Source: Sphaerolaimus hirsutus (lineage: Eukaryota > Nematoda > Chromadorea > Monhysterida > Sphaerolaimidae). From it: DNA of 64,000 bases. Position 1 is the first letter of the stretch, and each line of letters starts with the position of its first letter. The position numbers and the translations under genes were made by a program. Where the stretch lies: contig OZ038459.1 in assembly GCA_964036195.1 (NCBI GenBank), positions 5,205,206-5,269,205 on the forward strand. The letters are read 5' to 3'. Below are positions 7,693 through 56,200 of the stretch, piece after piece. The notes beneath the pieces were generated by a model that saw nothing but the letters and a program-made list of their open reading frames with translations, did not search any database and was not told the origin of the DNA.

Positions 7693-10600
7693 ATGTGATT
7701 TTGGGTGATGCGGATAAGTATGACCAATGGATAAAAGATATTGATGTCATGATGGGCTGGCTGACAGATAAAACTAGTGATGTTGATCTTCTACTTTATT
7801 ATGTCCCAGAACCGGATGAATCACAGCACCATACTGACATTTACAGGTAAAGTTTTAACAAATCTGAATGCTTAAGTAGGTTTTATTCAAGGGAATTGAA
7901 AGACATTCAGATAGGCTGTTGATAATAGCAATTGCTGATGAAAGGATCTTATACTTAGTGATGGAAAAGCGTCATGGCGCTAGCGCCAAATTAAAAAGCG
8001 CCACGGCCATTTGCTGTGCCACCATTTGCGCTAGGCGCTGGGGTTCGAAAAAGCGCCATGGTACCTTTGGTGCTTGGCGCTATTTTTGCCTGGCGCCAGG
8101 AACAAATTGCCTGGCGCTGGCGCCAAAGCAAAAAGCGCCATGTCGCTTCTGGCGCTTGACACCATTGGCGCTTGGCGCTGGGGTCCGGAAAAGCGCCATG
8201 GCGTTTTTGGCGCTCGATGCCAAAGCCCTGGCGCTTTTTCCGTCACTACTTTTGCTTCCTTCCTTATCTACTTATCTTAAATATTTTACAACCAGAAAGT
8301 ACGAAGTGCGGCACACTTCTTGTTCTAAAGCTCCAACCAGCTTGCAAGATACAGATGATTCCTTATACCGCATTTCCTCGAAATACCCCCAGGGGGTTTA
8401 TTATTAAGCCAGCAAATTCGACCTCGGGGGAGACTTATTAGGGGGGACTTATTCGACGGGGGGCTTAAGCTTTTCCATACTCAAAACTTGTAATATACGT
8501 GAGAAAAAAAACAGGAAAACTATATTTGCACACGTATAGGTATATATTTATCTACACAAACTGGGATTTATGTGTTCTTTACACAAACTGCACTTTGGCA
8601 GCGAATATAGCATACATGATGTACATCATTCAAGACGGGGGATATTGGTAGGGGGGTCCTCAGTTCGCTCAGACCTGGGGGTGTTTCGTGGGGGGGGGGG
8701 GTCAATTCGAGTGGGGGGGGGGGAATCGCGGTAATATAAACCAACCAGTCAATATGCCAACAGGGATCAACGATTTTGCATTAATGTAAATCAAAACGGA
8801 TTTTTCAGTTGACTGCTGACAGATAGTCAACTCGTGTGTAGTCACATAAATGGGTATACACACTATCCTGGTCAAGATAACAAAATTTACACATCCATCC
8901 ACAATTCCACCACTCAAATTTCAGCGACAAAAATCTAAAGAAACTCCACAATTTGGACAAATCAGTATACCACATGTTTCTGAGACTGATAGAAGCACAA
9001 ATGCTGGGAAACGTGGATATAATTTTCCTTGCCGATCACGGTTTTGCAGACCTGCCAGCAAGCACTGGACCATTTTACTTGGGAAATTACACCAAAAATC
9101 TGACATGGGTTGATAGTGAATTCAGCATGTTTCCTACTGGCAATACGACCACTAAACAGCTGTATCAAGGTAAAACATTTAAAAATTATATTAGTGACAA
9201 TATTTGTGAATACAATACAATGTGAATCCAAAATAACAGGCGGGCACCACCCCCATAACATGACATGAAGTGTAAAATGTCTGACAATCTTTTTTACTTA
9301 GAAACGTTTTTTTAACTGAGTCGTCGAAAGATACGTTTTTTATCTCTAGATTAATAATTTTTGCAAAATTATCGAACAGCACACCAAAAATTACGATTTG
9401 GCGCAACATATTGTAAATTTCTAACTTGAACATTATCGTTATATCAAACTGCGTGTGCGCCGCTTTAGCTGATTTCCCAATTGCACGTGCAATTTGATTT
9501 GCACACCGGCTTTCTAATCGCTTTTAACATCTACACAGCAATAAAAACTGCATGCTACAGAGAACCAAAACTTGAAGTTTACCTGAAAACCGAAATGCCA
9601 GAAGAAATGCACTACAAACACAACAGGTAAAATCAAAAATATTTGAACACATTTGATGGTATTAATTCAGGTGTCAACAATGTGCCTACACACACTAGTT
9701 TTCACCGTGACTTCGTGGGAAGACTAATTTTTTCAAATGCATATTAATCAACATGGTTGCATGATTTTATTTAATTTTAATGTGAATTTCAATTCATGAC
9801 AGTTAAAATTTGAAAATTTGAAAACTAAAACACAATTCAGTTTTCACAGAAGTCATGGTGAAAACTAGTGTGTAGGGCCAATGTAAAAATGTCAAATGAC
9901 ATGCAGTGTCAAAAGAAATATAAATTGCCCTGTAACATGCAAAAATTTCTTTCATTTTTTTCTGTATGTTTGACATTTTCCACAACGTTAGACACTTCTC
10001 ATGACATTTTACATCTTAAAGGTATTTTACACGTTCTTTAAGTGGCACCAGGGGTTGATTACTCAAGCTGTCAAGTGATGCAAATTGGGTCAAGCCTAGG
10101 GTGTCAAATTTCCGTTTCCGTTTTCCGTTTCCGCCTTTCCGCAGGAAAATTTTTTACCTTTCCGTTTTCCGTTTTCCGGCAGCCGAAAATTTTTTACCTT
10201 TCTGTTTTCCGTTTTCCGGCAGCTGAAAAATTTTTACCTTTCCGTTTTCCGTTTTCCGGCAGCTGAAATATTTTTACCTTTCCGTTTCCGTTTTTCCGGC
10301 CCATTTTTCCGTTTTCCGGCTGAAAAATTTTTACCTTTCCGTTTCCGTTTTACCAGGCCATTTTTCCATTTTCTGGCTCGATTTTCAGTATTCTGGCATT
10401 TTTCCATTGTTTTTCCAATCTGTATTTATCTTCAATTGGCTCATCCCATTGTGTTGTTTTTGTCTCTTGGAGCAGCATTGACAACTGGGATTTCAGGGTC
10501 AGTGAAACAGGTGCTGTGAACCCAATTGGGTCATATGCTGACACCAATAATTTATTCAAGTTTCATCTGGTTGGTGTTGTGATGCTGTCAATTTGCAATT

Positions 10601-13334
10601 TTGGTGTTGATATTGCCAGCATGTCCGTGGTGATGTTATTTCATGCCCATTACTGCAACAATTTTATTCACCTTTGGACTCCTGTCGTTTTCTGCTATTT
10701 CATTCATGACTGATCTGGAGTTTGACAGCCATTCCCTCATGTTCATAGAACATTGGTCAAATAACGCTTTGACTTTGTAATATAGTTCTAAAGCTTCAAC
10801 TTCATTCGTTACACTCATGATGAAGTTATCGACGTAAATGTTGTTTATTATCATCGCCAACTGGTTTTGTTCCCCTTCATTTTCTTCATATTCATTCATG
10901 TTGTTTATTGTCACATTTAAATGGTATTTTATGACTGCTCCCAAAATTGCTGGGCTGCAAACAAGTTCAAACAGTACGCGTTTAAAACAAAGTACTATTA
11001 AGTTATTTTCAGTTACTGGTTTTGAGGCATCTTTCAACCAGAAAAATTGTGTGTAAATAGTCTCTAGCTTGGTCATGCAATCCTATTTGCAAAAATGCCT
11101 TTTCATTATCGGCAATTAATGCTAGATTGCCTGCCCTGAACCTCAGGAGTAGGCCCAGTGTTAATGGTGTTGTAATTGGTTGTCTAAAAAGGCACTCGTT
11201 GAAACTGGGCTTACCTGCCGACCCATCGTACACAATTCTGCATGATGTCGATTTGCCCAGCGTGATTACTGGCTGGTGTGGCAGGTAATGAATCCCCTTG
11301 TTGTCTGTTTTGTTGTCACAGATCTCAATTATTCCCTTTTCTAGTTGGTCATCCAAAACTTTCCGGTATTGTTCGAATAAGTTTGGATCTTTGTTGAATC
11401 TTCTTATCAGTGATTTAAACCACACCAAGGCTTCTGCTTTTCCCCTGGGGAAGGTTACTGATACTCTCTTTATACGACCAGTCAATATAGTATTGTTTGT
11501 TGTTGTCATTGAATTTTATGCTATTTATTATCATCTCCTCTGCAATGTTGTCATCAATTGCATAGGGGTCATCAGTGACTCCCACTGCTTCTAGACTGTG
11601 AAATTGTCATAGTGTTTCCTTTCCTATGGCCACTATGGCTACTTTTTGATGATTTTTTGTTGGTTCAGTTAAGCTTGAACTACAAGTGAAGTTACAGGCA
11701 TGATCCATAGTTGCAGAATGTACAGCTACCACAATCAAAGCCAAATAGGCAAACCTGCATGCAGGTTTTCCTTCTGCAAATTTGTCTATTACCGTGCTAA
11801 TTTCACTTTATTTTTTTCCGTTTCCGTGAAAATTTTGCTTTCCGTTTTCCGTTTTCCGGCATTTCATTTTTCCGTTTTCCGTTTTCCGGCCAACAATTTT
11901 TTTTTACCTTTCCGTTTTCCGTTTTCCGCTGAGTGAAATTTTTTTACCTTTCCGTTTTCCGTTTTCCGGCAGAAATTTTTTTTTTACCTTTCCGTTTTCC
12001 GTTTTCCGTAAAGTGAAAAAATTTTACCTTTCCGTTTTCCGTTTTCCGTAAAAAAAATTTTTTGACACCCTAGTCAAGCCTATTACGCATCTAAACCCAT
12101 CACGCATATAGACCCGTTAAGACAAATACCCACAGGGGTAAGAAAGATTAACCATAAATAAACGATACCGTCGAAGGCGCATTGGCGACGTGGTTGTTCT
12201 ACCAAAACTTGGCTTCTGGCCATACTACAGCGTTGGATACACGCAACAATCAGATAAACAGGCACTGTTCGAGCTAGCTGACAATGATGGCGGTAAGCAG
12301 GGGCGTATCCAGAAATTTATGACGTGATGTAAATATAGGATCGGGGCATTTATGTGAAGTTGGCTTATGTCCAAGTTTGTATTTGGATAACGTTAAGTAT
12401 TATAGAACGAGAGCGAAAAACAAGATTTCCGTCCGAGTCGCCGAAAATGGGCCACACACAAACACGCCGCGCCACTTCGCCATCGTTAACGGCGGTATAC
12501 AAACAGGTGTATCCAAAAATTGTTGGACAGCAGCCAACTTCAGATAAGGGCCCTCCCAGCAAATATACGATTTTTCCTGGCTTTTCTCGCCAACAGAACA
12601 TGCCAAACTGGTGCCAGTGATTTGATAAACACCACTGCCTAGGACAATCATAAAATTTCGTAGATATTGTAATTACGCAACTCCAAGGAAAAATACTGAT
12701 TTTCTTGCAGTCAGGATTTACTGGGGTGTTCTATGCAGCATCACGACAAAATGTAAATGACAAAAAAATCTGACTTTCTTCCGGGACAAAAACCGTGAGG
12801 ACGCGTCCCAAATTGTGCCTACACACACTAGTTTTCAGTGACTTCGTCTGAAAACTGATAAAAAATTCAAATGCAAATAAATGAACACGGTTGAATGATT
12901 TTATTTAATTTGAATTGGAATTTTAATTAATGAAACTTGAAATTTAAAAATTTCAGAATTAAAACACAAATAGCATACAAAAAGAGTAGGCTGGATGTCG
13001 CCATGTGGCCATTTCAGTTTTCACAGAAATCACGGTGAAAACTAGTGTGTGTAGGGCCAAAAAACTACCTAACCATCTAAAAAAGCTATTTCAACACTCA
13101 GAAAATGGCCCTCTGCTGGCGCACGGCACCCACGGCTACGACAACGCGTATCCAGAAATGAACCCGCTTTTTGTGGCTTACGGACCAAGTTTCAAAAAGC
13201 GCTTTAAACTGTCGAGGTTCTCAGCCGTGGAAAATATCGATGTTTATCCATTACTTTGTCATTTGCTGAATGCGGACTGCCCAAATGGAACCTATGATGG
13301 TGATTTCGATAGAATCAAGGACGTTTTGGCGTGA
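7693..13334 (+). CDS. Ectonucleotide pyrophosphatase/phosphodiesterase (ENPP family), 3' five exons
   Basis: Exons 7693-7846, 8925-9169, 9539-9626, 12177-12292 and 13102-13334 (stop TGA) join in consistent phase. The protein has the ENPP metal-binding motifs: 'EPDESQHHTD' (Asp and His), 'FLADHGFADLP' (Asp-His) and 'HGTHGYDN' (final His). It also has the family's 'RRIGDVVVL' segment and ends '...DRIKDVLA'. ENPP enzymes hydrolyse phosphodiester or pyrophosphate bonds of nucleotides or lipids, usually at the cell surface or secreted. The N-terminal exons with the signal or membrane anchor and the catalytic threonine are not found in 1-7690, which is filled by retrotransposon DNA; they may lie left of the window. 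No C-terminal nuclease-like domain or GPI-type tail is seen. The acceptor at 12176 (TCGAAG) is weak. Each intron carries transposons. Confidence 0.85.
7956..8248. mobile_element. hAT-like MITE, GGCGCC family
   Basis: Termini are TAGTGATGGAAAAGCG and ...TTTTTCCGTCACTA, in an ENPP intron. The interior is a dense array of GGCGC, GCGCCA and AAAGCGCCATGG. The flanks CTTATACT and CTTTTGCT match at 6 of 8 bases, a decayed 8-bp duplication. Related copies lie at 47114-48405 and 53052-53154. Confidence 0.7.
8368..8731. mobile_element. TA-flanked hairpin MITE, CCGTATTTCC family
   Basis: Begins TA|CCGCATTTCCTCGAAATACCCC and ends GGGGGAATCGCGG|TA. The ends are a decayed inverted repeat with a TA duplication, as in Tc1/mariner-type elements. 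The interior is rich in runs of G. Confidence 0.6.
9676..9890. mobile_element. MITE with ACACACTAGTTTTC inverted ends
   Basis: GTGCCTACACACACTAGTTTTC at the left is inverted at the right as GAAAACTAGTGTGTAGGGC, with a second inner inverted block (GTGACTTCGT / GAAGTCATGG). It lies in the ENPP intron after 9626. Relatives are at 12813-13066 and 44968-45226. Confidence 0.6.
10097..12072. mobile_element. hAT-like element, TTTCCG family, carrying a BEL/Pao fragment
   Basis: The termini TAGGGTGTCAAA and TTTGACACCCTA are perfect inverted repeats. They are flanked by a perfect 8-bp duplication, GTCAAGCC (10089-10096 and 12073-12080), the hAT signature. Subterminal arrays of TTTCCGTTTTCCG(GCAG) fill about 10100-10380 and 11810-12060, in the same orientation on both sides. 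Between them lies a degraded BEL/Pao RT fragment. No transposase frame is visible, so it is non-autonomous. It sits inside the ENPP intron 9627-12176. Confidence 0.85.
10350..11640 (-). pseudogene. Degraded BEL/Pao reverse transcriptase fragment
   Basis: Three overlapping or adjacent minus-strand frames (11009-11509, 10636-11076, 10350-10559) give a BEL/Pao RT colinear with the element at the left of the window. They include 'CRIVYDGSAGKPS', 'YVDNFIM' (the RT active-site box with its tyrosine intact) and 'YDPIGFTAPV'. Frame changes and stops separate them. There are no LTRs. Both sides abut TTTCCG arrays of the surrounding hAT-like element, so this is cargo and not an independent insertion. 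Confidence 0.8.
12813..13066. mobile_element. MITE with ACACACTAGTTTTC inverted ends, second copy
   Basis: Left end TGTGCCTACACACACTAG, right end CTAGTGTGTGTAGGGCCAA, with AT-rich interior. It sits in the last ENPP intron, ending some 35 bp before the final acceptor. It is related to 9676-9890. Confidence 0.6.
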
Positions 13335-13381: not shown

Positions 13382-14384
13382 CCTTATTTGCTCGCAATAC
13401 CCCCCTTGAATAACACCCCCTCCCTCAAAATACCGCAGGTGTTTTGGAGCTAAGGAATAAAACCCCCCCTCGAAATACCCCCGTCTTGAATGATGTACAT
13501 CATGTATACAATGTACATGATATATTTATTGGGGCCAAATCTCATCGCAGCTATACATCGAGTATTTAGTGTGTATAGCTATCTACGTTTGTATATTCTA
13601 ATATGTCCCGTTTGGTGACGTTCATAACCAGTTTTGGGTATGTAAAAGCTCATTCTTTACTATGACATTTACGAAAATTTCTGCCGAAATAATAAACTCC
13701 CCTCGAACTTAGGGTTCAAACGGGATTGACTTTTCGGGATCGGGATCGGGATCGGGATTCACTTTTTGAGATTTCGGGATCGGGATCGGGATCGGGATTG
13801 GGGTTTCGGGATCGGGATCGGGATTGGTTTTTTGAAATTTCGGGATCGGGATCGGGATTGGCCGGGATTGGGGTCACGGGATCGGGATCGGGATTGGGAT
13901 AGGCATTTTTCCGGGATCGGGATTGGGTTCTAGGGATAGAGATTTTGGCCATTTTTCTGGCATTCACAGTTGTTCATAAAGGTCTCAAAACACTGTTGGA
14001 TGCCAGAAAAGTGCATAAAATTGACGCTGGGGGTTTGCATCCACTTTTTTGCATGCAAAAACCTCATTATTTGACTTTTTATAATTTCCACTAATTTTTC
14101 CGGGATCGGGATCCCGGACTTAGGAGTTTCTCGGGATCGGGATTTGAAAATTTTCGGGATCGGGATCGGGATCGGGATTGGTCTTTTTGAGATTTCGGGA
14201 TCGGGATCGGGATCGGGATTGGGGTTTCGGGATCGGGATCGGGATCGGGACTGGTAAATCCCGGAATTTCACGGGATCCGGGATCGGGATCGGGATCCCG
14301 TTTGAACCCTACTCGAACTACCCCCCCCCCCGAAAAATTTCCACTCTGAAAAAAAAACCGTGGAGTTTTTTCGAGGAAATACGG
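13382..14384. mobile_element. TA-flanked CCGTATTTCC-family MITE split by a hAT-like element
   Basis: The left end TA|CCTTATTTGCTCGCAATACCCCCC and right end TTTTCGAGGAAATACGG|TA are the decayed inverted ends of this family. The 602-bp element at 13710-14311 has inserted inside it, duplicating CTCGAACT. It lies between ENPP and RPLP0. Confidence 0.65.
13710..14311. mobile_element. hAT-like MITE, CGGGAT family
   Basis: Termini TAGGGTTCAAACGGGAT and ATCCCGTTTGAACCCTA are a perfect inverted repeat, flanked by a perfect 8-bp duplication CTCGAACT (13702-13709 and 14312-14319). The interior is mostly tandem (ATCGGG)n or CGGGATTGG motifs in several blocks with a short non-repetitive centre (about 13940-14100). 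No coding capacity. Confidence 0.9.
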
Positions 14385-14911: not shown

Positions 14912-17900
14912 CTAATCAAATAATCCGAAGCCCATATCATCATCTTCGCTCTCACTTTCCTCTTTTTTAGCTTCAACCTTTTCTTCAACTTTTTCCGCTT
15001 TTGCGGCACTCGGCGCCGCCGCGGCTGCGACAGCGGCAAATTTCGACGGGTCGGCCAGAAATTCTTTGAGCTGCGGAGACGATTAGATTGTCATTTTTGC
15101 GATTTTTAGAGTTCCAAAATTTAATTTAATTTTTCCTGATTAGTGCACTTATATGATCTGCCGCGAGATTAATTCGGGAAATCACGAGTGGCGGGATAAG
15201 CGACAGACTTGCACGTGAAAAACATATTTTCGTCTACAAATTTATATGCTAAAAAGCTTAGTTGACCATTCGTTACTTCTCTTGCCACTCAACACTTGAG
15301 CCCATACCAAAAACTTCCCTGAAAGCAATGTTCACAATAAATCAGTTTTCAACCCACTCAAATTTGTCAGGCTAAACCATTTGTCGTTCTCCATCAACAG
15401 CAGTCAACGGACTCTAAATTCCAGTCAACTCAAATACACTCAAAGCAAATAAATCAGTTGCCAAATTTCAACCGTCAACTAGCGTTCGTCAACTCAAGAC
15501 AAACCGTCTCAGCCTCCTTAAAAGTGACATCGGTCACGGCGGCGATAGCCATTAAATTGCGCATGCCATTCGCAAGCAAATGGGGCGCGCTCGCCGCAGT
15601 TGGATAGTTGATGGCCAGGCAAATCGACGCGAAATTGGCCACGCCCTAAAAAAGGGCAGATTTTTATCGACTTTGTTGAATTGTAACTGATTGGTTTGTT
15701 TTTGAAGAGTGCAGTTAGGATTTGATACAGGGGTCTCCTAGGGGGGGGGCTGGGGGGGGGGGGCTGCCCCCCCCCAAATCGGCCAGCTATCTATCTATCC
15801 CGGAGGCCCCTCAGCTATCTATCTATCCCGAGGCAAAATTTTTGGCTACTACCCCCAAAGACCCCCCCAAATCGCTCAGCTATCTATCTACCTGGAGTGG
15901 TTTTTGAGAAATTTTGCCCCAATTTTCGCTCAAAATCACAAATTTTCGCACCTTTTTATAGTTTTTCACCTTCAAAATTGTGCTTTCCAGTTATATACAT
16001 ACTTATATACCTATTTTGAGCCATTTTATACCTACTTTTGGCTACTTTTAACTTATTATTAGCGATTTTTTCTCCTTTCTGCCTTCTTAACCTTCAAAAA
16101 GCCTATATATTGTGCCCCCGCGAGCCCCCCCCCCCAAGCCCCCCCCAGAAAAATTTTCCAGCTATATATCCCTCCGGAGGAGCGATTTGCTATCTATCCA
16201 GCCCCCGCGAGGGCCAAAATCCTGGAGACCCCTGATTTGATATGATTTACCTATTTTAACGCGTATTGAAAAAAGCGTTTCGGACTGATTTAGCTTCAGA
16301 CTCAGTTTCAAACGTCGGCTCATTGTACACAAACTTCAACTTAAACACAAATTGTACACAAACTCGAGTATAGAAGCCATAGGGTTGCAACGATGAGTTT
16401 TCGATATCGATAATCAATAGGTAAAATGGTCAATATGTAATATTCGATACAAAAATTAGTCGATATTCGATACGATATATTGGCACCACACACGCTGGAT
16501 GCCAACTGAAATTCCTGTCAAATAAATTTTAGTGAATTATGTGATATCAACCTTCCTATCTAATAGAGCAGTCAATAAACTCATCATGACACTTAATTTT
16601 TTATTGTTTCTGACAAAGAGTGATGCTTTTCAATTTGTCATATTATTCAGTTCACACGAGTTCGCAATGTCAACTAGCGCGTGCGAGCCCACTCTCCCAA
16701 ATGTCAACTCCACCCACAAATCTACCTGCAAAAACTTGGTCCTGACGTCGTCCTGGGTGATGTCCAAGAGACTGGGCGAGTACATGGAGCCGTTGTCGTA
16801 CACCATTTTTACAATCAACCCATAGGAAAACGGGCGGATGTTCATCATGTTGAGCAGGGTCGCCTCGCTGGCGCCCACCTTCTCGTTCGCCTTGATCAGG
16901 TGCACCTCGTTCTGAAAGTTGGCAGCAAAGGAGTTGGGTGTAGGGAGGGAAAAATGTGTTTTTAATAAACTTCGTATTTAGAAAATAAGTTTGAAAAACG
17001 ATTTTAAAAAAGATGGAACTTCTGGCACTAAAAATACTATAAAACAATAGACTTTTTAAATTTGCGTCTGAAATTGCATGCTAATTTCCAGTTAAGTTTG
17101 TTCGAAACTAGATTGCGACTCTCATTATTACACACATTGGGTGTCAACTGGTTTCCATGTCAATTCAGATTTTAGTTGACGGGTTGCAGGCCAATCCCAA
17201 GTGCACATGCGGCAATGTGGAAAAGGAATTAACATTGTCGTGTGCATTTGAACATGTTTGCGCGACCCGTCAACTAAAATCTAAATAGAAACCAGCCAGC
17301 CCAGTTGACACCCGATGCCATTGTCAACTGGTGTGTTCATAACGCGCCATCGCCCCAAAACCGACCAAAATTTCAATAGTGCCCTTGGAAATCTTAGTCG
17401 GAATGGCGAGCGCCTGAAAGAAGCTCGTCTTTTCCGGTCCCATTCCGGTATTTTGCGGCGGCAATTTCACGTCGATAGGCGCCAGGGCGCCGGCGCGCGC
17501 CGGGGCCGGTTTCCGATTTTCCAACAATTTGTCCCGAATATCGGAAAGATCTTCGTGCGTGAACACGAAGCCCACGTTTTCCACGATGTGCGGCAGGATT
17601 CTGAGGGTTTGAATCCGAATTTGCGTGGTTTGAATGGGTGGGAATTTAGGAAAAATACGAAAGTGGCTTTTTTCACTAAAAAAGGGGTCTCTAATTAGGT
17701 GCTGGGTGTATGGGTCAGGTTTCTGGGTCTTTCATACATAGGGTTGGAAAAAAACGTTTTTTTAACTCGATGTTTTTTTTAAAAAGCTCCCAGATATGAT
17801 CTTGTGTCAACATATATAGGAATATCAGACATACTCTGTGGCAATACTCTGTGATGTTATATATAGGGATGGCCAGCGCCCTTTTTTTTAAAAACGCCAA

Positions 17901-20900
17901 TTTTTTTTAAAATAGCGCTGGCAAATTTTTTTTAGTTCTTATGCACTAGGTATTTTGCAAAAGTTTTGCGCGCAAGCGCGCAATTTCACACACAAATTGA
18001 CATTGGTGGTTGCTTTTCATTGGTCTTGTTATATTTTTAGTGTCATTGCTTCTATTCCTGCATGCTACCAAGGACGTAGGCGGGGNNNNNNNNNNNNNNN
18101 NNNNNNNNNNNNNNNNNNNNNNNNNNNNNNNNNNNNNNNNNNNNNNNNNNNNNNNNNNNNNNNNNNNNNNNNNNNNNNNNNNNNNNNNNNNNNNNNNNNN
18201 NNNNNNNNNNNNNNNNNNNNNNNNNNNNNNNNNNNNNNNNNNNNNNNNNNNNNNNNNNNNNNNNNNNNNNNNNNNNNNNNNNNNNCGTCCGAAATGTTTT
18301 TTTTTAAAAAAAACATCGGCCAAAATTTAAGTACTAAGCACTAGGTATTTTGCAAATTTTTGCGCGCAAGCGCGCAATTTCACACACAAATTGACATTGG
18401 TGGTTGTTTTCATTGGTTTTGTTGCATTTTTAGTATCAAAACATCCATTTCTATGTGCTACCATGGGTGAATAAGCCGACATATGTTGCTGTAACTCCAC
18501 TGGCTCCACAGCCATTATATGGTCATATTTAACATCACAGAGTATTGCCAGTGTCTGATATACCTATTTATGTTGACACTAGGTCATATCTGGGAGCTTT
18601 TAAAAAAAAACGTTTTTTTTTTTAAAAACATCGAGTCAAAAAAAACTTTTTTTCCAACCCTAGGCGCCCCCCCCCTAAAATTTTACCCCTGTTGTAGGGG
18701 AATGGCGCCATGGCGCTGGCGCCATTCGTACGCGCCACGCCATGGCGCCACTAGCGTTGGCATTGGCGCCAAAACAGCAGTATCTACATTTTACAGGCAT
18801 ATACAGCGACATGGACAGAAATTGAGTCCATTTTCACTGGCTTTTAGGATGCGGAGACTGGTCAGCCAAAAATGTTTTGAAGGGAGAATGCGGGCGCACA
18901 ATTTTTCAAACTGTCAACAAAATCGTCGTCTGAAAATGCCATTTCTGGTACATTTTTTGGTCCGGCCCGGGAAGGGGGGGGCGGCCGCCCCCCTCCCCCC
19001 CGCCCCCCCTGGCTACGTTCTTGGCCAACGCCAATACTGCCATGGCGCTGGCGCCTACAAATGGTGCCAGCGCCATGGCTCTATTCCTTTACTATATGGC
19101 AAAATTATAGGGGGGTGGGGCCGCCCCCCCCCGTTCGCCGGGCTCTGTATACAATCCGCCCCCCCCCCGTTCGCCGGGCTCCGTATACAATCCGCCCCCC
19201 CGCTCAAAAATCCTGCATACGTCCCTGCATGCTATCATGTAATAATAAGTTGTGATATGTTAGTGTAGTATTGAATATTCAGCCAATGTGCTCCCACATA
19301 CTTCTACAGTGGGAAACATTAGTTTCAATGTATTAACCTTGTCTTATAGCCTTATTTATAAGCACTATTTCATGCCTAATATCACTTGAAGTCACGAAAC
19401 ATTCACAAACAGCAATATACATAACGAGTCAACATAAAAGTATTTTTTTTGCACAAAAACACCACTTATCATGTCATCCCATGACTACACAGCCATTCTA
19501 TGGCTCTATATCATCACAAGTACTGCCACTTGTCTGATATACCTGTATATATTGATACAGAACCATATTTGGGAGCTTTTTAGGGAACATCTTGGCATTT
19601 TTTGGAAAAAAGCAAAAAAAGCGCAGTTTTTAAAAAGGCGCTTTTTTTTAAAAAGCGGGGCCGTAAAAAAGCGCTTTTTTCCATCCCTAGTTAAATATGA
19701 CCATATAATGGTTGTGGAGCCATGGGATAGCATTATAAGTGGTGATTTCTGTCAAAAATATTCATTTTTTGTCAACATGTTCATATATCGCCTTATAGTC
19801 AAATGTTTGTGACTTCAGATGAAGTTTGGCACGGAAAAGTGATCAAACAAGGTTATAAAAGGAGGTTGTTACTTTGGGAGTGAAGTTACACACTGTGGAG
19901 GTACATGGAAGCACATTACCTCAATATTATATACTACAGCAACATATGTCGGCTTATTCACCCATGGTAGCACATAGAAATGGATGTTTTGATACTAAAA
20001 ATGCAACAAAACCAATGAAAACAACCACCAATGTCAATTTGTGTGTGAAATTACGCGCTTGCGTGCAAAAATTTTGCAAAATACCTAGTACTCAGGGGTA
20101 TCTTGAATTTTGACCCTCCGAGTGGTTGGATAGATAGCAAATCGCTCCTCCGGAGGGATAGATAGCTGAAAAATTTTCTGGGGGGGGGGTTTGGGGGGGG
20201 GTTGTGGTGGTTCGATATATAGGCTTTTTCGGGGCATAGGAGGAAGAAAAGGGAGAAAAATCGCTAAAAGTAGGTGTAAAATAGCTCAAAATGGGTATAC
20301 AAGAGCATATAGTACTTAAAATAGCTGAAAATAGGCAGTTAGATGCATGAACCAGTGATTTTGGAGGTGAAAATCTATATATAGGTATGAAAAATAGCGA
20401 TTTTGAGCAAAAATTGGGGTATAGTTTCTGAAAAATCGCTCCAGATAGGTAGATAGCTGAGCGATTTGGGGGGGGGTTTAGGGGGTAGTAGCCCAAAATT
20501 TTGCCTCCGGGATAGATAGATAGCTGAGCGGCCTCCGGGATAGATAGATAGCTGGGCGGTTTGGGGGGGGGGGTAACCCCCCCCACCCCCCCCCATTCGA
20601 GACCCCTGCTAGTGCTTAGTACTAAAAATTTTGGCCGATGTTTTTTTTAAACATTTCGGACGTCATGTTTTAAAAAAAAAACGTTTTTTCAATAAAAAAC
20701 GTTTTAAAAAACATCGGCCAACCCTATTCATACATGGTTGTATTCATCACATATATACTTTATACACGGTTATATCTAAAACAAATGTCGGTCAAAATCA
20801 TGTCCACACGCGAACGTGTTTGGTTCTACGTTCGGAAATTAATTCGTTTTTTTTAGAAAGTTTTGGAAACAGAGACCAATCACGCATGTAGGCCCAACTT

Positions 20901-44200: not shown

Positions 44201-47200
44201 CCACAGGGGAAACCTGTCTCGGAGGCTCAATTTGTCATTTAGAAGCATTCAGATGCATTTGCCCAGATGGCACAGTGCCAAATATGAACACATTCACTTG
44301 TGAACCTGTAAATGGTGTTGTTCAAATGTTTGGCAAAAAGACTAATGTGATTTATGTGGACGGTGATCAAGATGCGGCTGGAAATTCATTTCACATCACC
44401 AGTGGTCAGCAGAGGGTCACAGCTACTTTTCCCAGGATTAGTTCCGAAATTACTGAGCCGCCCAGAGTTACTGTCACTGTACCCAGGCCTAGAAGTGGTT
44501 TGTTTGTGGCTTTTTTCCTTGGATTTTTTCCAATTTTTACAAAAATTATTGGAAAAAATTTATTTTTAATATTCCAGTCAAACTCGGTGCCAGCTGTAGG
44601 CCAATTGATCACTGTCAGAGTGGTGGAATTTGCTCAAATGGAAAGTGTATCTGTCATGATGGATTTGGACAGAGGGGAGATACTTGCATAGAATTTGGCT
44701 CAATTCAAGGTTTGTCATATTAACTTAGACATTAAAATTCAATTTTTTAAATAAATATTTTAACAAAAATTTCAGTTGACGTCGGCCTGACATGTGACAT
44801 TTTCACAAAATGTCTTGGAGGGTCACGCTGCACACAGGGCAGGTGTACTTGTCCACCACCTTTGGAACAGGTGTGTTTTTGTTATAACATTTTCCAAATG
44901 AACTGCATAAGAAATCAGATGATTTTATGATATGGTAACATTCACGTATGGTAACATTCATGCTGGTTTATCCACACAAGCTAGTTTTCATAGTTCCAAT
45001 TTGAAAACTCAACTGAAATCTTGTCGATCTCCTTACACATGGTAGTTCATGAACTGATAATTTCAGTGAACTAATAATTGCATCCTAATTCTAGTGTGCT
45101 AATTCTAAGTGGTCAGTTATGGGATGGTGGAAGGTTCAATCAGCATTCACATTGCCATTCAGTTTTTGAACAGGTTTTCAAATTGGAACCATGAAAACTA
45201 GTTTGTGTGGCCACACCCACATTGGTTGAAAAAATCTTTGCAAAAATTTAAAATGCAACAAAAACTTCTCTCCGCCAGGCAATTTTTAAAACAAAGCCAA
45301 ATAAAAACCTGAACACCCCCCATGAAGATTGGTTCCCGTTGTGTGGCGATGCGATTGACATCTAGCCCAAGCCCGCCCACAGTTGGTGCTGGACACAGCT
45401 GTGCAAAAGGTAAGGGGATTATTTGAATGTAATTGAAGGTCTCTTCTGAAAGTTGTGGGACAACAAATTTATTACCGTATTACCTCTAATATAAGGTATA
45501 CATTATATTGTTTTCGTCAGATTTTTAGAGCCAAAAGTTATACCTTATATTAGAGGGTACCTTCAATTTTTTGGCCAGATTTTGCATAAATTTAACATGC
45601 ATAAATTCAATACAAAACGACCTGATCGGTATTGAGTTATCGCCGAAGAAGTCGACGAAGAGTGATCGCAGTGCCTTTCGGCACCATTATCATCATTTTC
45701 CGCCATGTTTAGCAACCGTTTTTAAGATTTTGTGCGGTTTGGCACGCAGCCAGCTGTATTAAATTAGAGGTGTGCCTTATATTAGAGGGTACCTTATATT
45801 TATTTCGTCACGTTCAATATAGCCAAAAGTTATACCTTATATTAGAGGGTACCTTATATAAGAGGGATGCCTTATACTGGAGGTAATACGGTATGTGTGT
45901 GTGTGGATGTACATGGGTGCGGTTATATACTTTTACAGAACCATTTTAAATACAGTCAGATTTAATTGCTGCAACCGAGTATCCCATGAATTGTGGAACG
46001 GACTAGTAAATATATCTTACAGATGCACAGATAAACAAACCATTTTAGTGGAACATATGTAGACAGAAATGTGTCGATAAAATTAAAGATAGAAAAAACT
46101 CACACACTTCATCAATTCACACATTACACATCAGTAATTTTTCCATGTTTTTTAATGACGTGTCTATACACGGACAATTTTAAGCATTATTTCCTCAACT
46201 TTAACGTCAAAAAATTCTCCTACACTGACTTTTTCCAAGGTGAAATTTGCGGCCACGGTTCAGTATGCAACGCGTTTGCCAAAAGATGCATGTGTCCAAT
46301 TGGCACAGTGCTGAAAGTGGACAGATGCGTGGATAGAAGCGACGTGCGGGGACAAAGTTGGTTGGGGCGAAATGTTGTTGTTGCCGTGTTGGGTGGGCAC
46401 AAAAAGTGAAACGTTGAAATTCTAAATTAGAAAACGTAAATACCGTATTTCCTCGAAATACCCCCCGGGGGTGATTGCTTCAGAGTGGGAATTTTGACGA
46501 AGGGTTAAACGAGGGGGGATTTCGAGGAAATACGGTAGATAGATGTGCGATGAATAGTCTTCCATCATTTGAAATCAGTATAATAAGGGGTTTACGCTTG
46601 AACGCTTCCCTTTGCTCGTGCTTTATACTAGTGAAACGAAATTTCATACAGAGTTTTTTATATTCTAACGAAACAAATATCTGAAACAGTAGCGAATTAC
46701 AGCGCACAGCATATAATAATACACGTTTGGAACACACAAATCTCCAATCCGATTCTAACCTTTGCGAAACAAAAACACAATCCTCAAAACAAACACAGAA
46801 AAAACACAGAAAAACACATTTAACACAGAAAAACACGTGGGCGACGCGTGCATCGGGGACGAGTGCGCCAGCGGTGCCTACTGCGACCGGAGCGTGTCCA
46901 ACGCCCGTTGCAGATGTCTAGCGACCCATGTCAGGGTGGACAGGCAGTGCTTGAAGGGTTAGTGATGGAAAGTGGCGCTTTTGTGTTTGTGATGCGAGCT
47001 GGCATGGAGCCAGGGAAATGATCATATTCGATTTTTCATAACTCTACTGAGCGGGAAGGTTTTACGCCGGGTGTTTAAGATCAAAGTTCGCGTCGTGGCC
47101 AGTGACATGCGCTTAGTGATGGAAAAAGCGCCAGGACTTTGGCGCCAAGCGCCAAAAGCGCCATGGCGCTTTTCCGAACCCCAGCGCCAAGCGCCAATGG

Positions 47201-50200
47201 CGCCAGAGCAAAATGGCGCCGAGCGCCAAAAGCGCCATGGCGCTTTTCTAAACCACGGCGCCAAGCGCCAATGGCGCCAAGCGCCAATGGCGCCAGAGGA
47301 TATTGGCGCCAAGCGCCAATAGCGCCCGCGCCAAAAAATTTTTGCTTCTCATATATGCAGCCATGCTGATGCACTGCTATCAATTTGTTTTTGGCGCAAG
47401 ATACAAGTCAACCGCGGTCACTTTTCTTCTTTTTGTCTTGATATTTTGCAGCTGGGTGTTTGGGCTTAGGTATAGCACACCATCTGTAAAAAGTACTAAG
47501 ATTTTTTAGGTGTTTTTTTTAAATTTACTTTTGGAATTTAGTTGTTTTTCCCAAAAAATAATTTTCAAATGAAGTTTTCAATTTTTTGTGGAATACTTTC
47601 GATTTTTCTACAAGAATATTGCAGTTTCGAGTTTTGCTAGTCACTTTTGAACATAGGATTTTGAGGTTTCAAATTTTGGATTGCCATTGTTGGAATGGCT
47701 TCAGAAAGTGATTCCACACCCTGTAAAATCAAGTGTCAAATGTCAAGAAGTAAATGTGATGTAAAATGACAATCAAAATAAAAAAATAAAAAATTTTGAT
47801 TGAACTTTTGACATTTCGCATGACACTTAACAAAGTTGTATTTATGAAATATTGGATGATGTTTATTACTCAACTTCACACTTTTCAGGGTCCTTTGACC
47901 CTGCTCAAACAAAACTGCAAGGAACGAGCTCAGTATAGCGATTGAACTAAAACCTATGTGAAGAGTGTTACGAGTCCGATGAATAGTCACATAAAGTCTT
48001 ACATAATTCTGATTAGATGGGACAAATGTTGAATACCCATGCAATCACAAGGAAATTGTTTATAAAGTAATCAAGAACAGGGTATATTGATCCGGGAATA
48101 CACTGACAGTAGCATTTATACTTATGTAAATTATACTTAACGGGTCTTTCTGCATAAAATAATGATGAATTTTGAGTAAACTTCTTGGCGCTTTTTTGGC
48201 GCTTTTTAAAACACTAGCGCCAAGCGCCAATGGCGCCACGGCATCATAGCGCCAAGCGCCAAAAGCGCCATGGCGCTTTTCCAAACCCCAGCGCCAAGCG
48301 CCAATGGCGCCACAGCAAAAAGGCGCCAAGCGCCAAAAGCGCCATGGCGCTTTTTGCTTTGGCGCTAGCGCCAGGCGCCAGCGCCATGGCGCTTTTCCAT
48401 CACTACATGCGCTATTACATTAACATACAGATTTTCGTAGCGACTCATTGCGTAAAATACCGTTTGTATTTTGTAATCTACCTAGTTGACATTGAAAATG
48501 CAAACACCAAAACGGCCGTGAAACGTGCAACTTTATATCCGTCCAATTTTAAGCTCACTGTACACATTCCATACCATGTACTACGTACACATTCTACTCA
48601 CGTTTTACGCAGTCTAAAAGTAAAAAATTCCTTTTCCTTTTCTGTACTCAGGCGTGAGTAGAATACAAATACTTTACGTTAACGTTTACATTGAAAAAGT
48701 TCAGTATTTTCAACAACTCTGTTCCGTACACAGTAATTCTACCCGGCGAGCAAGGGTGCGTATCGTCGCTGCAATGCTCGGCAGTCCAGTCGGATGCAAA
48801 GTGCACACTGGGCAAGTGCCAGTGCCCAGATGGATTTCTGTTGGAAGCTGCCACGAGAACCTGTGTGCTGGACAGAGATACAACCTTGGCTGTGAATATG
48901 CCCATTTCTGTACAGTATAGGTGGGTGTGCGGTGTGCCTTGCGAATGTTATTCGAGTTTTTTTTAATTATTTTTAATTTCATATTGTAATTGCTGATAAA
49001 TATGTCACAGGACAACGACAACGATGCAAGCGTCAACGACGAGCAGTAGCACAACGACAATGAGTACCACACCATCGACCAGCGCAACAACCACGCCAAC
49101 CACTACAACTACGACAACAACTGTGCCAACTACGACAACAACTGTACCAACTACGACAACAACAGTGCCAACTACCACAACAACAGTGCCAACAACCACA
49201 ACAACACTGCCAACAACCACAACAACACCACCAACAACCACAACGTTGCCAACAACCACAACAATGCCAACAACCACGACAACAATCCCAACTACGACAA
49301 CAACAGTGTCAACAACCACAACTACAACCACACCTACCACGACCACACCACAGACAACACCTTTAACACAGAGCGCAGGTACAGCTGTGGACACTGTGGT
49401 TGGCAGTATGGTAGACTCTGGGCCTGGACCTGGGCTGGATATTGATGGAAATAGTGAGAATGGAGGTAAATTGTTGTGTTTACCAGGAGTTTGAATTTGG
49501 AGGTTTTTGGATTGGACTCACTTTTGATGGATTGATTTATGATTATTTCATTGGCGAGTCGAAAATGCAGCGTGCATGTCGGTTAATCATTTATATTTAA
49601 ATGGTAAATGGTAATTATCTAACAACAAGTAACATAACTCACACTTATTAACCCCATTAACCCCTTTAATCAACATCCTACTGACACATTCATATAGGAA
49701 TAAATCTCCAGTCAATTTCTGAGCACACGCGAATAGCGAGATCTAGCGACAATGATCTGAAAAAGCGTCGACCAATTTTTTCGGACGTAAGTTTTTGATA
49801 CATTATTTCGTTTTTCACCAGCCTTCTCCCGCGACAAACCGAAAATTTGACACATTTTAGATGATGGCAAAACCGACAGATTGGCAAAGATTAGCAGTAG
49901 CTGATCCACTGAGAACGCCGGCCGGCCATTTTTGTGTCGCTAGCCAAGGGAAATGTGCCGCCGGGTATGGAATTTGCGACGACAATAGTTTCTGCAGGTT
50001 TGGTGGTCGATATATTTACACTTTACAGGCGCCAATTCCGCAGGTGTAGAAGTAAAAGAAAAGCGATTCAGAAGTGAGAAGTGTTTAAAAAGTTATAGGC
50101 AAAGTTAATTTAGGTGTAAGAAGTTTAAAGACGTTAAAAGTTTACCATGCGATTGACTTTTTACTTTCATTTTACTTCTTACTTTTGAATTTACTTTTCT

Positions 50201-53200
50201 TTTCACTTTTCAGTTCTCACTACAGATCTCACTTCTAAAATTACTTCAGCTTTACTTCAACTTTTTACTTCTCATTTCAAAAATGGTTTTTGTCCTCTCC
50301 ACTTGGAATTGACCCCAGATTCTCAAAACAATTGACATTCAATTTCGACACTCAGATGCATCAACAATTTGATACCAGTGAATGGAACCTGCGTCGATCC
50401 ACTGAGTTCATTCAATCAGCAACATTCGACATTGCTCGGCCAACTATCTGGTGCCAGTCCCAGACCCTGTAAAATGTCAAAAGTCATGCAAAGTGTCAAA
50501 AGTCATGTAATATGCCCTGCAAAATGACAACGGTTGCCATTTTGCAGGGCATTTTCATGACTTTTGACACTTTGCATGACATTTGATATTTTACAGGGCA
50601 TTTACAGGGTCCGGGACTGCTCCCTGGCCTTTTTTTGCCTCGCGCCAGGGCGTACAATCCCATGCCAAAATCGATGACATCTTTGGATGGCAGGAAGGGG
50701 GCACACGACCAGAATCAGAGCAAAGCTGACAGGCCAATCCTGGTCCAAACTGGTGAAAATGGCCAGTTATTTGATAGGAACGTGTCAGCCACAGCAATGC
50801 CCGCATTGACTCCACTGTGCAATGGGACTGACAAAGCTTGCCCTCCATTGGCTCAATGTATGGGTGGAATATGCATTTGTCAGACTGGGTGGTTTATGTA
50901 TCAGGTTCGCCAGGCATTGGGATCTTTGTTGATGGCTGTCAGAGCTTTGGAGTTTCAAATTTCGGATTTAGACGTATTTATGCACCGCAGACAGCGCAGT
51001 TTTACGCAACAGCGTGCCAACGCAACACATGTAATGTAGCAAAGTGCGCCGCGCCATAGTGCCATTTGCGCTTGGCGCCCTTTTCCCGTGGCGCCATTGG
51101 CGCCTCGCGTACTACTTCCATGGCGTCCTTGGCGTTTGGCGCCTGGCGCGCAATCCTAAAAGGGCGCCATAACGGCGCCAACATGGTTTCAGGGTGAGTC
51201 GTGTAAAAACGACAAAAATGTTCAAATGAGTGAATCGGAAATCGATTTTCGACTCATATGGCTAACTAAAATGGCTAAAGACAGAAGTCTTGTGTAAACA
51301 GAGTGTGTAAATTGTAAAGTGTCATAAAAAGTGTCAAAAGTCCCGTAAAATGTCAATTATGTTTATTTTTCAATTATGTCAAACATACAGAAATATTTAA
51401 AAAATATAAATATAAAAAAGATTTCATTTTATAGGGCTTATGACATGGCTTTTAACACTTTACAGGCCCTGAGAGTAGCCCCCTGATGTATCCAGTTCTT
51501 TGTTTAATGAGAAGCATAGTTTTCCACTTGAAGCTTTTGAAAAGAATGTCAGCTATAATCAACTTAGGTACTATGCACTTTACACTAAAATCTAAAACAT
51601 ACCATCTGAATAAAAAAACTTAATATTTAAAAACCACATAAATAACACGGCCCTGGACAAAATATAGCCCCCTGCCCACGCACAGGGCGCTTGCCACAAT
51701 CGCTCGGAAGCCTCCAAACTAGCTAGACCCTGTCAATCCACCAGCGACTGTATCCAGCCCAAGATCTGCCTGTCAGGATTGTGTCTGTGCCCAGGTGCCA
51801 CCCCCGGACCCTGTAAAATGTTCTGGAAAATGTTAAATGTCATGTAAAGTGTCAAAAGTCGTGTAAAATGCTCCGAAAATGTCAAATGTACGTAATGCAG
51901 TGTCATAAATACTGTAAAATGCCCACGTTAGCCATCTTCCAGGGCATTCTACATGACTCTCGTTTTGACACTGAACGACATTTGCCATATTTCAACCGCA
52001 TTTTACATGACTTTATACACTCTACATGACATTTTCCATTCCACATGGCATTTTACAGGGTCCGGGAGTGCCCCCAGCTGGCACCTCTGATGGCAAAGTA
52101 GAGATCGGTGCCAGTGATGCCCAGTGCGCCAATGGCCCGCCCATAGCCAGGCAGATTCCTGTGGGCGGTAGGTGCAGCCCGTTTGAGAGTTGCGCTGGCG
52201 GAGCTCAGTGCGTCAATAATTATTGCGCCTGCACTGCTGGTTTGCTTTGTTTTTTGTTGTTGTTTTTTGTCAGAAAGTAACGATGGGAAATCATCCCCCA
52301 GAAAAAAGTGTTTAAATTTTCAAGTGTTTTTTTTCTAACACGACTTTTTGAATTCTTCCCAAAAATTGTTCTATTTTGGATTTTTTGAATCTTCGATTTT
52401 TTCCACTAAATTATTACATTTACGAATTTTTTCGCTGATTTGTTTATTGAGTTTTTGCGGGCTTTCAAAGCTATTACCGCAGGCAAATTTTTGTTCTGTC
52501 ACTGCCATAGATCCATGTGAAACTTATGGTTTGAATCGTGTTTCTGCATTTTACGTGCATTTTTACCAAAAATACACTGAAAACTTTCCAACATTCGAAA
52601 ACGTTTTCGATTTTTTTAGAAAACCATGGATTTTTAGGCGTTTTCTCGGTGGTTAAGCATCAATTCGAATTTTTGTTCGCAATCGTTATCGGCAAGTGTG
52701 ACGAAAATGCACACTGTATTTACAGATACTGAAATAGGTCACCCTGCTTTGGTGACATTTCCTTATCATTTCTTTGCCTTGGGATATCCATTCAAAGGGG
52801 GGGGGGGTATTTCTCACCATTTCCACAACCTTCCACCTCCAATTTTCCTGTTGAAAAAACGTGATTTGTTGTTGCAAATTTACAGTTGGTCATTTCAACG
52901 CTCAGGTTCCGTGGTAAACAGGGGCGTCTGCGAGCAGTCGCCAACGAAATCTTGCCTCGCCGGTCAGGTTTGCGTGGGCGGAGCTTCCTGTCAGTTTGGT
53001 GCGTTCAACTGAAACACTTCACGTTGAGTATTTTACAGCCAATGTGCAATCTAGTGATGGAATGGCGCCATGGCGCTGGCGCTCTTTAATGGCGCCAAAA
53101 GGCGCCAGCGCCCAGCGCCATGGCGGCATTTTCGCTGGCGCTTTTCCATCACTAGTGCAATCCCACAATGTGACAGGAGTGATTAAAATGATGACGAAAT

Positions 53201-56200
53201 TGATAAACCTTGTCACAACCCAGTTCGTCACTTATGCATCCACTTCAAATGTCGGTGGCAAACAACCGAATAGACCACATCAAACAAAAACCACACTCAC
53301 CCCAAACCCCCAGGCATCTGCACGTGTCCCGGCGGCGAGGCACCTATAGCAATCCAAGGCTCTACAAACCTTCAGTGTCCCAGCGGGATCCGACAAAGGG
53401 CCCGACCCGGGGAAAGATGTCTAGAGGGACAGGTGTGCGTGGGCGGCAGCGCGTGCTACATGGGCGTGTGCATGTGCGGCAAGGAACAGAGCATAGTTGC
53501 TGGGTTTTGCAGACCCACTGGTGGACAGGTGTACCCTGGGCAGGCGTGCAATGGGTTAGTTTGGCGGTGGGGTTGCTTTTGGTGGGAATGTTTGGGTTTT
53601 GGGATATTGAGAAATCTGATTTGAGATTTGGGATTGGGAGAAATCAAGACACCCTGATGCTCCATTGTTACTGGGATTTTGGCTCGGTGCCAGTGGTGAA
53701 AGAATGATCAGTTGCTAGTTGCACTCCAGCAAATCATTGGTCCAAATTTCGTGATGAACCACAGCTGCGGAACACAGATTACCTCTAACAAAACCACCAC
53801 AAAAAAACACAACCCCCCAACCCAGGGGCCAAATCTGCCAAGGGGGCTCTTACTGCTCGCCCAGCCTGCAAACCTGCGTATGTCCATCGGGCATGCTGGC
53901 GATCTCTGACAAGTGCACCTCGCCTGACAGCTTGGGCAAGCCGGGCCAATCCTGTGATATTGGAGCAGTGTGCACTGGGGGTGCCACCTGCGACACTGCC
54001 ACTGACAGTTGCGTTTGTAGCTATGGGCAGGTCATTGTTGCTGACAGGTGTGTCACTACTGGCAGCCCAGCTCCTGGCAGTGTGTGCAAGGTGGGTCGGG
54101 TCTGTGGGATGGGTATAGTGAGTTTACTGATCAAATAAAATTGAACTCTGGAGTTTTATTACTCGTTCTTTGAATGAGGCGCTTTAATTTTATATTTTTG
54201 GCAATCAATACATACTGGCAGGGAATTCCATGCGAAAATCCCCCTTCCACTATTCAATAATGAATGATGGAATAAATGATTCTTATTCATATGACAGATA
54301 TATATAATCATTTCATTTTAATTCAGAAAAATAAAATAGAACAACTATACCTACATATTTTCCATCAATCACATCGCAACCTTAAACCTCCAAAAAAAAC
54401 CCTCCACACCCTCCACACAGTCTGGCGAAACCTGTAGCGGGGGTGCAGTGTGCGCCTTTTCATTGTGCCGCTGCCGCAGAGGCCAGACAATCGACGCGGC
54501 CACGATGCAGTGCGAATCCGCCAGCAACCCGGTGTACCCCGGCGCCAGGTGCGGCGGCTCTGTCAGCGGCGCGGCGCAGTGCAGCGGCGAGAGCTTTTGC
54601 GTAGATGGATTGTGCAGGTGTAGGCAAGGTTAGGGTGCTGGTAGGGTTCGAACGGGATCGCGATTCCGGATCCCGAAAACAATCCGGGATTTTGTGGTTC
54701 CGATCCCGATCCCGAAACCTCTATCCCGATCTCAATCCTGAAAGCTCAAAAAAACGATGCCGATCCCCATCCCGAAACCTCAATCCCGATCCCAATCCTG
54801 AAATCTAAAAAAAGAATCCCGATCCCGAAAATCAATCCCATTTGAACCAGGGGTTTCGAATGGGGGGGGGTGGGGGGGGGGTTACCCCCCCCAAACCGCC
54901 CAGCTATCTATCTATCCCGGAGGCCGCTCAGCTATCTATTTATCCCGGAGGCAAAATTTTGAGCTACTACCCCCTAAACCCCCCCCCCCAAATCGCCCAG
55001 CTATCTACCTATCTGGATCGATTTTTGGAAACTATACCCAATTATCGCTCAAATCACTATTTTTCATACTTTTTATAGATTTTCACTTCCAAAATCACGG
55101 TTCTGGTCCCTATTTGCCTATTTTCAGCTATATATGCTCGTGTATTCCCATTTTGAGCCATTTTACACCTACTTTTAGCGATTTTTCTCCCTTTTCTTCT
55201 CTCTATGCCCCGAAAAAGCCTATGTATCGAACCACCACAACCCCCCCAGAAATTTTATCAGCTATCTATCCCTCCAGAGGAGCGATTTGCTATCTATCCA
55301 ACCACTCGGAGGGTCAAAATTTTAGATACCCCTGGTTTGAACCCTCGGCTGGGTTATAAAAATCATTCATTCCATTGATGTGATTGACTATCGCGAGTGA
55401 CTGCATGCTCGCTTTAACGAGATTTACCGGAATCACACATTTGGAGCGGTCTCACGAATGTTTTCCCAAATATTCTTCGACAGTTTTTGGGCAGGAGGGG
55501 GTAAGTAGGGTTCAAACGGGATCCAAATCCTGAGATTTCAATCCTCACAGAAACTTGAAACCCCGATCCTGAAGCAAAAAGTTTAAAAAAAACAATCCTG
55601 ATCCCGATCCCTAAAAGTGAATGTCGTTTAAAGAATACGGGAAGGGTGAGTGGAAACTGGCATTCAGCCAGCAGACACACCATGGCGTTTTTAAAAACTA
55701 TAATTTTCTCTCAACTTGTCCACGCAGGCTTAATCATTCTGAACCGGCAGTGCAGTGTAAAAGAAGACACTGGAGACACAGTGACCCCTGGACAAAGTTG
55801 CGCAGCGGGCCAGAAATGTTCTGGTGGTGCAACCTGTGATGGCAAGTCGTGCGTCTGCCCCCAAGGTTAGGTTTGAAGGAAAACTGTCCTGTGAATTCGT
55901 CCAGGTGCCACTTCCAAACAATGTCAAATGTTATGCAAAGTGTCAAGTAAAATGCCTGTAAAGTGTTTACTGCTCCTTTTATATTTTTCATGACATTTCG
56001 TATGACTTTACACACTTTCCATGGCATATTGCAGGGTCTTGAAGTCCCCTCACTCCACAACCATGCTATATAAATTCATATACATTTGCAGGTTCAATCA
56101 TAGTGGACACAATGTGCATGCGAGCGAAATCCCCAGGGGAACGGTGTTCCCCTGGCACAGACTTTTGTTCTGGCGGCGCCGCCTGCGATGGCCTGTCAGG

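Follow-up and report, generated by a model that had tools for sequence, protein, structure and literature searches.

Miniature inverted-repeat transposable elements (MITEs) of the hAT superfamily with subterminal repeats are a known kind of mobile element. The transposase of maize Ac binds the subterminal hexamer AAACGG (PMC3260210), and the BED domains of the Hermes transposase bind oriented subterminal repeats (STRs), which are antisense at the left end (LE, STR2-7) and sense at the right end (RE, STR1-5). The asymmetry of these ends is an important requirement for activity, and symmetrised ends lose most or all of it (PMC10368747). More generally, hAT-derived BED domains vary in what they prefer, often CGG and sometimes GCGC or AT-rich sites, with matches in their own subterminal regions (PMC8097297); here and below, our account of published systems draws on parts of the papers cited. 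We analyzed a stretch of 64,000 nucleotides from the nematode Sphaerolaimus hirsutus (assembly GCA_964036195.1, contig OZ038459.1, forward-strand positions 5,205,206 to 5,269,205; hereafter the window), which contains several families of cut-and-paste elements, at least two of them hAT, whose subterminal zones are filled with arrays of short units. In most of these elements the left and right arrays share one direction despite inverted tips, and in one family the units of entire arrays differ in concert between copies that share a backbone. By analogy with the above systems, we consider it probable that these are non-autonomous hAT elements, and that their arrays are transposase-binding sites which were rewritten alongside a changing DNA-binding domain.

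Unit words and array direction at the element ends

The rewriting of units is clearest in the CAGAGTTG family, for which we use the label Kap, and which is represented in the window by a lone minus-strand end with one mismatch (tip at 48721). Kap copies carry AAGCGTAA, AAGTGTAA or AAACGTAA at identical dispersed sites at both ends of a single alignable backbone. In the 348-Mb assembly, over which ends of Kap and of three window families (F1, F2 and F3) were counted, a pattern that left the dinucleotide free in each of three neighboring units recovered 1943+1900 Kap ends (3843 in all; control 0). Among 100 such matches listed, with unit states read by eye, 86 had uniform triplets (39 AC, 25 GC and 22 GT) and 14 were mixed, including two with AC and GC and one with AT and GT. 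A narrower pattern, whose list shares copies with the former, gave 45 TTT, 40 CCC and 15 mixed ends among 100 matches listed, so that 85 were uniform as against the 23% expected if the units were independent.

Twenty Kap copies were fetched by unit state, 12 of them deliberately mixed; L035, L037 and L039 were dropped as they had no clean second end, and the remaining 17 were aligned at both ends with four earlier copies. Comparison of the T and C classes leaves out the mixed copies L036 and L038 and retains L029-L032, in which unit 3 is C or A, in the T class. With a fixed site defined by presence of the class letter in at least 8 of 9 T copies and at least 8 of 10 C copies, 13 of the 16 unit sites have different fixed or nearly fixed letters in the two classes, compared with 15 of the 308 remaining columns (nominal P 3e-13); once the three sites used to pick the copies are set aside, the figure for unit sites is 11 of 13 (nominal P 7e-12). 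The three non-fixed unit sites comprise one with T in both classes, one at which the T-class copies are split between T (five) and C (four), and one that is partly deleted. The AC class is represented by eight further copies, six of them with both ends, each with 12 AC units and with spacers that are still alignable. Mean divergence outside the units is 2.7% within the T class, 5.1% within the C class and 5.3% within the AC class, and rises to 7.8% between T and C and 14.6% between C and AC.

Alternative unit words also occur on other TIRs (terminal inverted repeats). The TAGGGTTCAAA TIR of F2 is combined with CGGGAT, CGATAT or, in a single copy (L024), CGGGAC, while the TAGTGATG TIR is found with either GGCGCC or CCGGTGCC. 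Among 100 F2 ends listed, 78 were of the CGGGAT type and 22 of the CGATAT type, none mixed both, and ten carried an isolated base change within a unit (by eye). The word is uniform per element and not per TIR lineage, and the one array per transposase lineage suggested in the original prediction is not supported in that form. These families are abundant, with 3576+3499 ends for F1 (reversed-pattern control 3+2), 2368+2300 and 1581+1631 for the two end types of F2 (control 0) and 5033+5215 for F3 (control 0). No exact match to two long words, one from F1 and the other from F4, was found in viral contigs.

The original prediction missed that the array at one end is a direct rather than an inverted repetition of that at the other. 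In the window F1 element at 10097, TTTCCG occurs on the plus strand 20 times in the left and 21 times in the right array, and not once on the opposite strand; in the F2 element at 13710, CGGGAT occurs 21 and 19 times, with 3 occurrences on the opposite strand. The corresponding counts for the TATCTATC and GCGCCAAGCGCCAA arrays are 5/1 and 5/4, with none on the opposite strand in either case. The plain hexamer GCGCCA is less clean, with 17+15 as against 9+8 on the opposite strand in the element at 47114 and mixed directions in those at 7956 and 53052. When 6-mer similarity of the two ends was compared across 50 elements, direct exceeded inverted similarity in 45. The same arrangement is seen in how ends pair: of 61 F1 ends with TTTCCG reading inward (first 5 Mb of C1), 49 have an end of the opposite type as their closest facing neighbor at up to 3.5 kb, one has an end of its own type and 11 have none. 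For 78 F2 ends (first 8.2 Mb) this neighbor was of the opposite type in 48, of the same type in two, of another class in one and absent in 27, with a random expectation of 1.1; four of the 48 opposite-type pairs are only 58-169 bp apart. As copies within a family share their array direction by descent, the independent evidence lies in the agreement between families.

hAT remnants and the weighing of explanations

The hAT dimerization domain (PF05699) is matched 28 times across the genome, the open frames concerned having 43-148 residues. We fetched 20 of these loci with their flanks, and in 17 of these, chosen as they were for the domain, it lies within a two-ended element with TIRs (at most two mismatches) and a target-site duplication matching at 7 or more of 8 positions. 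The innermost element is F1 in eight cases, a TAACGATGGCAA element in five, F2 with CGATAT units in two and Kap (CAGAGTTG) in two, both of the latter having AAACGTAA units. Of the unplaced loci, L011 and L019 have domains identical to that of L012 at 44/67 and 39/52 positions and a Kap end on one side, and L016 is identical at 47/54 positions to the F2 domain of L017. To judge from sequence, four TIR lineages are linked to hAT through the domain, among them F1 and F2 of the window. The lineage of the TAACGATGGCAA elements, with its five PF05699 loci, is also labeled TAACGATGG. In the TAACGATGGCAA elements of about 1.1 kb (L020, L021, L023 and L028) a hAT-dimerization frame of 111-115 aa is open in four of five copies, with a stop in L027, and is possibly a retained dimerization-only product. 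Separately, six tandem BED-finger matches lie on one strand at C1:7466186-7488779 (L070-L074), distant from all PF05699 matches, and may be host genes derived from a hAT BED domain.

The duplications were examined over 264 kb, made up of the window and a further 200 kb of this genome in twenty 10-kb stretches, by listing ends of the known TIR groups with at most one mismatch and pairing facing ends of the same group less than 3.5 kb apart. A perfect 8-bp duplication flanks 45 of 89 such pairs, and 50 if one mismatch is allowed, while perfect duplications of 6, 7, 9 or 10 bp flank none (87 pairs at 10 bp). Many of the remaining, unsorted pairs will be ends of different copies. hAT TIRs typically have the form (T/C)A..G, and those of Ac begin TAGGG/CAGGG. 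The TAGGG, CAGGGG, TAGTG and CAGAG ends found here fit the general form and TAACG less so, though the scan itself demanded T/C followed by A. Relative to the known hAT target bias nTnnnnAn, the 45 perfect duplications have T2 in 27 cases, A7 in 20 and both in 11. The elements, of about 0.1-3 kb, are MITE-like forms together with Ds-like deletion derivatives: they are short, non-coding, TIR-bounded and, as counted for F1, F2 and F3, of high copy number, with some larger copies containing transposase or BEL fragments. The identification as hAT-type MITEs is supported for F1 and F2, where 8-bp duplications and TIRs are joined by short C-terminal domain remnants, while F3, F4 and F5 are hAT-like by their ends and duplications. 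As other superfamilies (P or KDZ) also make duplications of 8 bp, one of these could be proposed instead, in particular for F3, F4 and F5, whose copies are without transposase evidence, but with PF05699 inside four TIR lineages we regard such an origin of the elements as extremely improbable.

Other explanations concern the arrays themselves. These might be neutral tandem repeats grown by slippage within hAT MITEs, with the differences between subfamilies being accidents of their founders. F1 and F2 arrays are indeed partly head-to-tail, array length differs between copies, and every class could trace to a single founder. However, many Kap units stand isolated between unique conserved spacers, beyond the reach of homogenization by slippage, and the identical change recurs in units of either strand, at the left as well as the right end. 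For a founder accident to be responsible, more than ten like changes would have to be set against a net spacer change of about 4% (7.8% between classes minus about 3.9% within them). This makes the neutral account distinctly unlikely. CpG decay offers itself for the T class, as AAGTGTAA is AAGCGTAA minus its C. It is seen in an old copy (L027 2709-3197) that mixes TGG and CAG, a candidate TGGAAA class of F1 which we rejected as a decayed copy, and TG or CA occupies 13 of 150 unit cells of the C class (one site left out). T retains the 5-methyl group of 5-methylcytosine and, speculatively, a methyl-reading enzyme might tolerate TG. Yet in decay CA is no rarer than TG (8 to 5 in these cells), whereas the T class has 125 TG to 1 CA, with 3 CG, in 135 cells, and on these counts we rejected decay as the origin of this class. 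Moreover, deamination of CpG makes neither AAACGTAA nor CGATAT, and there is little CpG depletion (observed/expected 0.84 in the window and 0.91 in the 264 kb), leaving this explanation very improbable.

A third proposal, unlikely but the least so of these alternatives, is that families exchanged whole arrays through recombination, or through template switching in gap repair, aided by the direct orientation of the arrays. In its favor, the F2 classes share the TIR, the first unit, a GACTTTT-like spacer and two units before diverging, direct arrays would favor internal deletions, and closely spaced facing F2 ends do occur. In Kap, by contrast, the classes align over about 120-145 bp per end with spacers largely intact, so that nothing was swapped and array replacement is rejected for this family.

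We therefore return to the arrays as binding sites. The original prediction had suggested that they may be amplified transposase-binding sites, a proposal that gains from analogy and from the coordinated unit changes, though no intact transposase was found. On the simplest account, each subterminal unit would be the site of a BED zinc finger of the mobilizing transposase. Sites facing the same way would confer polarity, because an enzyme proceeding inward from one tip would meet forward sites and from the other reversed ones; array polarity may thereby distinguish left from right ends, and one-way arrays may set which ends can pair. If the specificity of the transposase were to shift by one or two bases, only copies with the new word would still move well, and the outcome would be an array that looks rewritten between unchanged spacers and TIR tips. 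We also put forward, as a tentative extension, that such a lineage repeatedly re-keys itself: a dozen or more dispersed sites per element would switch to one word in step with the transposase, with the backbone conserved, giving subfamilies that no longer cross-mobilize, such as those with AAGCGTAA, AAGTGTAA and AAACGTAA, or with CGGGAT, CGATAT and the single-copy CGGGAC. That each word has its own transposase is a candidate reading, and it is possible that part-way copies with units T, T and C are still present.

A number of observations weigh against the binding-site proposal and its extension. Kap copies share descent within a class, each class may represent one event, and the P values are accordingly nominal. 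The switch is not all-or-none: unit 3 is C or A in four of nine T-class copies (L029-L032, which may be part-way forms or products of later exchange), one unit has T in either class, the copies L036 and L038 are of mixed state, and one GC unit is kept in two of six AC-class copies. The F2 classes align well only over about the first 40 bases, so that array exchange retains a place in that family. Among the 50 elements five do not show the direct rule, namely three from the window (15728, at 0.30 to 0.32; 17739; 53052) and two TAACGATGG copies, whose unit TTCGAA is palindromic. With respect to the enzyme, no intact transposase was found, the same-strand frames listed near the domains having at most 193 residues. 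An exon-by-exon search yielded eight BED matches genome-wide, none near PF05699 and six of them in the single C1 cluster. Candidate links to hAT for F3 (through L022 and L026), F5 (through L012) and F4 (through L015) were ruled out among the 20 loci, as the domain there belongs to nested F1 or Kap copies. Finally, re-establishing asymmetry among the STRs of the first 50 bp did not rescue Hermes LE/LE ends, and right-end STRs have no BED contact in the structure (PMC10368747). Both speak against a simple polarity role, and the failed rescue weakens the polarity step.

Elements of the window and their surroundings

Ten two-ended elements were counted in the window, one short of the minimum of eleven originally proposed: six have perfect duplications, two nested ones match at 7/8 positions, and the remaining two at 6/8 and 3/8. 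All six octamers named in the original prediction were recovered directly outside facing TIRs, namely GTCAAGCC (10089/12073), CTCGAACT (13702/14312), ATTTGATA (15720/16235), CATGCGCT (47106/48406), GTGCAATC (53044/53155) and TTCATACA (17731/20727). For the five said to combine perfect octamers with full end matches, the octamers are indeed perfect, while the TIRs of the elements at 10097, 13710, 15728, 47114 and 53052 match at 12, 12, 11, 12 and 11 of 12 bases. A blind scan of the window for an octamer and a 10-of-12 TIR gave eight matches, these first five elements and three with palindromic octamers; its k=6 version gave 172 raw matches, and the cleaner control is the facing-pair count over the 264 kb. 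With at most one mismatch 37 ends are listed in the window, some of which may be chance, and a further facing pair (17137-17315) has a duplication of 2/8.

The F1 element (10097-12072, plus strand; TIR TAGGGTGTCAAA, duplication GTCAAGCC) has TTTCCG arrays at about 10103-10410 and 11813-12060, both on the plus strand. It contains a BEL/Pao-like pol fragment (10636-11515, minus strand), which is 61% identical over 132 aa to the open reading frame at 1629-5360. The mid pieces of all three F1 copies of about 1.97 kb examined (L067-L069) match this fragment at 94.7-95.4%, so that a captured piece of a retrotransposon has multiplied as a passenger, while L009, L014 and L024 are without it. The F2 element (13710-14311, plus; TIR TAGGGTTCAAACGGGAT, duplication CTCGAACT) has CGGGAT arrays at about 13734-13925 and 14100-14295 on one strand, and the F4 element (15728-16234, plus; TIR CAGGGGTCTCC, duplication ATTTGATA) has CTATCTATC units on the plus strand only. 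The F5 element (17739-20726, plus; duplication TTCATACA) has a 9-bp TIR (TAGGGTTGG, matched by eye) and T/A runs around ACG; within it lie an extra facing end (18662), an assembly gap (a run of 200 N at 18086-18285) and a nested F4 copy (20093-20608, minus) with the duplication CTAGTACT/CTAGTGCT.

Three F3 elements are present on the plus strand. That at 7956-8248 has the TIR TAGTGATGG, GGCGCC units and a 6/8 duplication, while that at 47114-48405 has the TIR TAGTGATGGAAA, the duplication CATGCGCT and GCGCCAAGCGCCAA units in the same direction at both ends. The third is a mini-element of 103 bp (53052-53154; duplication GTGCAATC) that does not follow the one-way rule. An F2 copy (TAGGGTTCGAACGGGAT ... 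TTTGAACCCTC; 54642-55346, minus) has effectively no duplication (3/8) and is interrupted by a second nested F4 copy (54848-55334, plus) with the duplication ATTTGAAC/GTTTGAAC. The two nested F4 copies are those with 7/8 duplications. A genome search with the termini and a check for empty sites, as originally suggested, gave thousands of ends and an unfilled site for the F4 copy nested in F5: its joined flanks correspond, but for single bases, to the unfilled site in a paralog of the host element (L020) and to the mirrored window copy.

The surrounding sequence includes two stretches with EB modules (PF01683; 44137-44691 and 53758-54138). Between them lie a threonine-rich frame (49000-49494) and the F3 elements at 47114 and 53052, all within 44137-54138. 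A 48-bp satellite at 36832-40137 has 56 copies and adjoins an inverted block of 12.5 copies with 91-92% complementarity; the inverted-repeat listing of the window is swamped by a satellite. Another satellite (29323-31861) is built of 116-bp units and shows longer periodicities at 145, 258, 348 and 465 bp.

Comparison with known transposon systems

How a DNA-binding protein and the many copies of its site change together while function is kept is a long-standing question in protein-DNA coevolution. If re-keying did take place, these elements would be a natural record of such coevolution within one genome. The thousands of copies, with three array versions on one backbone, make the order of changes, the part-way states and cross-mobilization directly testable. 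The one-way sites under inverted tips likewise provide a broad natural test of the asymmetric-end model put forward for Hermes. Two features, dense one-way arrays under inverted tips across families and replacement of the units of a whole array on a conserved backbone, were not found in the literature covered; for whole-array unit switching this refers to papers on hAT and related transposons covered in part (including PMC2872659 and PMC8978399).

The elements resemble maize Ac/Ds in their 8-bp duplications, short TIRs, subterminal hexamers (bound by transposase in Ac) and short derivatives, some with transposase fragments (PMC3260210), and AAACGG itself is present in the F1 arrays. Unlike in Ac/Ds, the arrays of F1 copies hold about 10-20 units at each end, all of them on a single strand, and other lineages of this genome use other words. 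With Hermes they share the one-way arrangement, on our reading of its STRs when both ends are written from the tip inward (PMC10368747), but they differ in their dense uniform arrays, their thousands of copies and the several unit words per backbone. Herves also has a short subterminal motif, CG/AATTCAT, bound by its transposase at both ends, whereas motif arrays and unit classes are not mentioned for it in the parts of the report covered (PMC3143072). Galileo, of the distinct P superfamily, has multiple transposase (THAP) sites in long, internally repetitive ends, with no discussion of site orientation in the corresponding parts of its description (PMC3688188). The comparison extends to the CGG-binding proteins that arose by domestication of hAT elements, as CGG is part of the F1 and F2 words and GCGC of the F3 words; while the survey of these proteins, in the parts covered, concerns the binding domains (PMC8097297), here it is the DNA side that is seen to have been rewritten.

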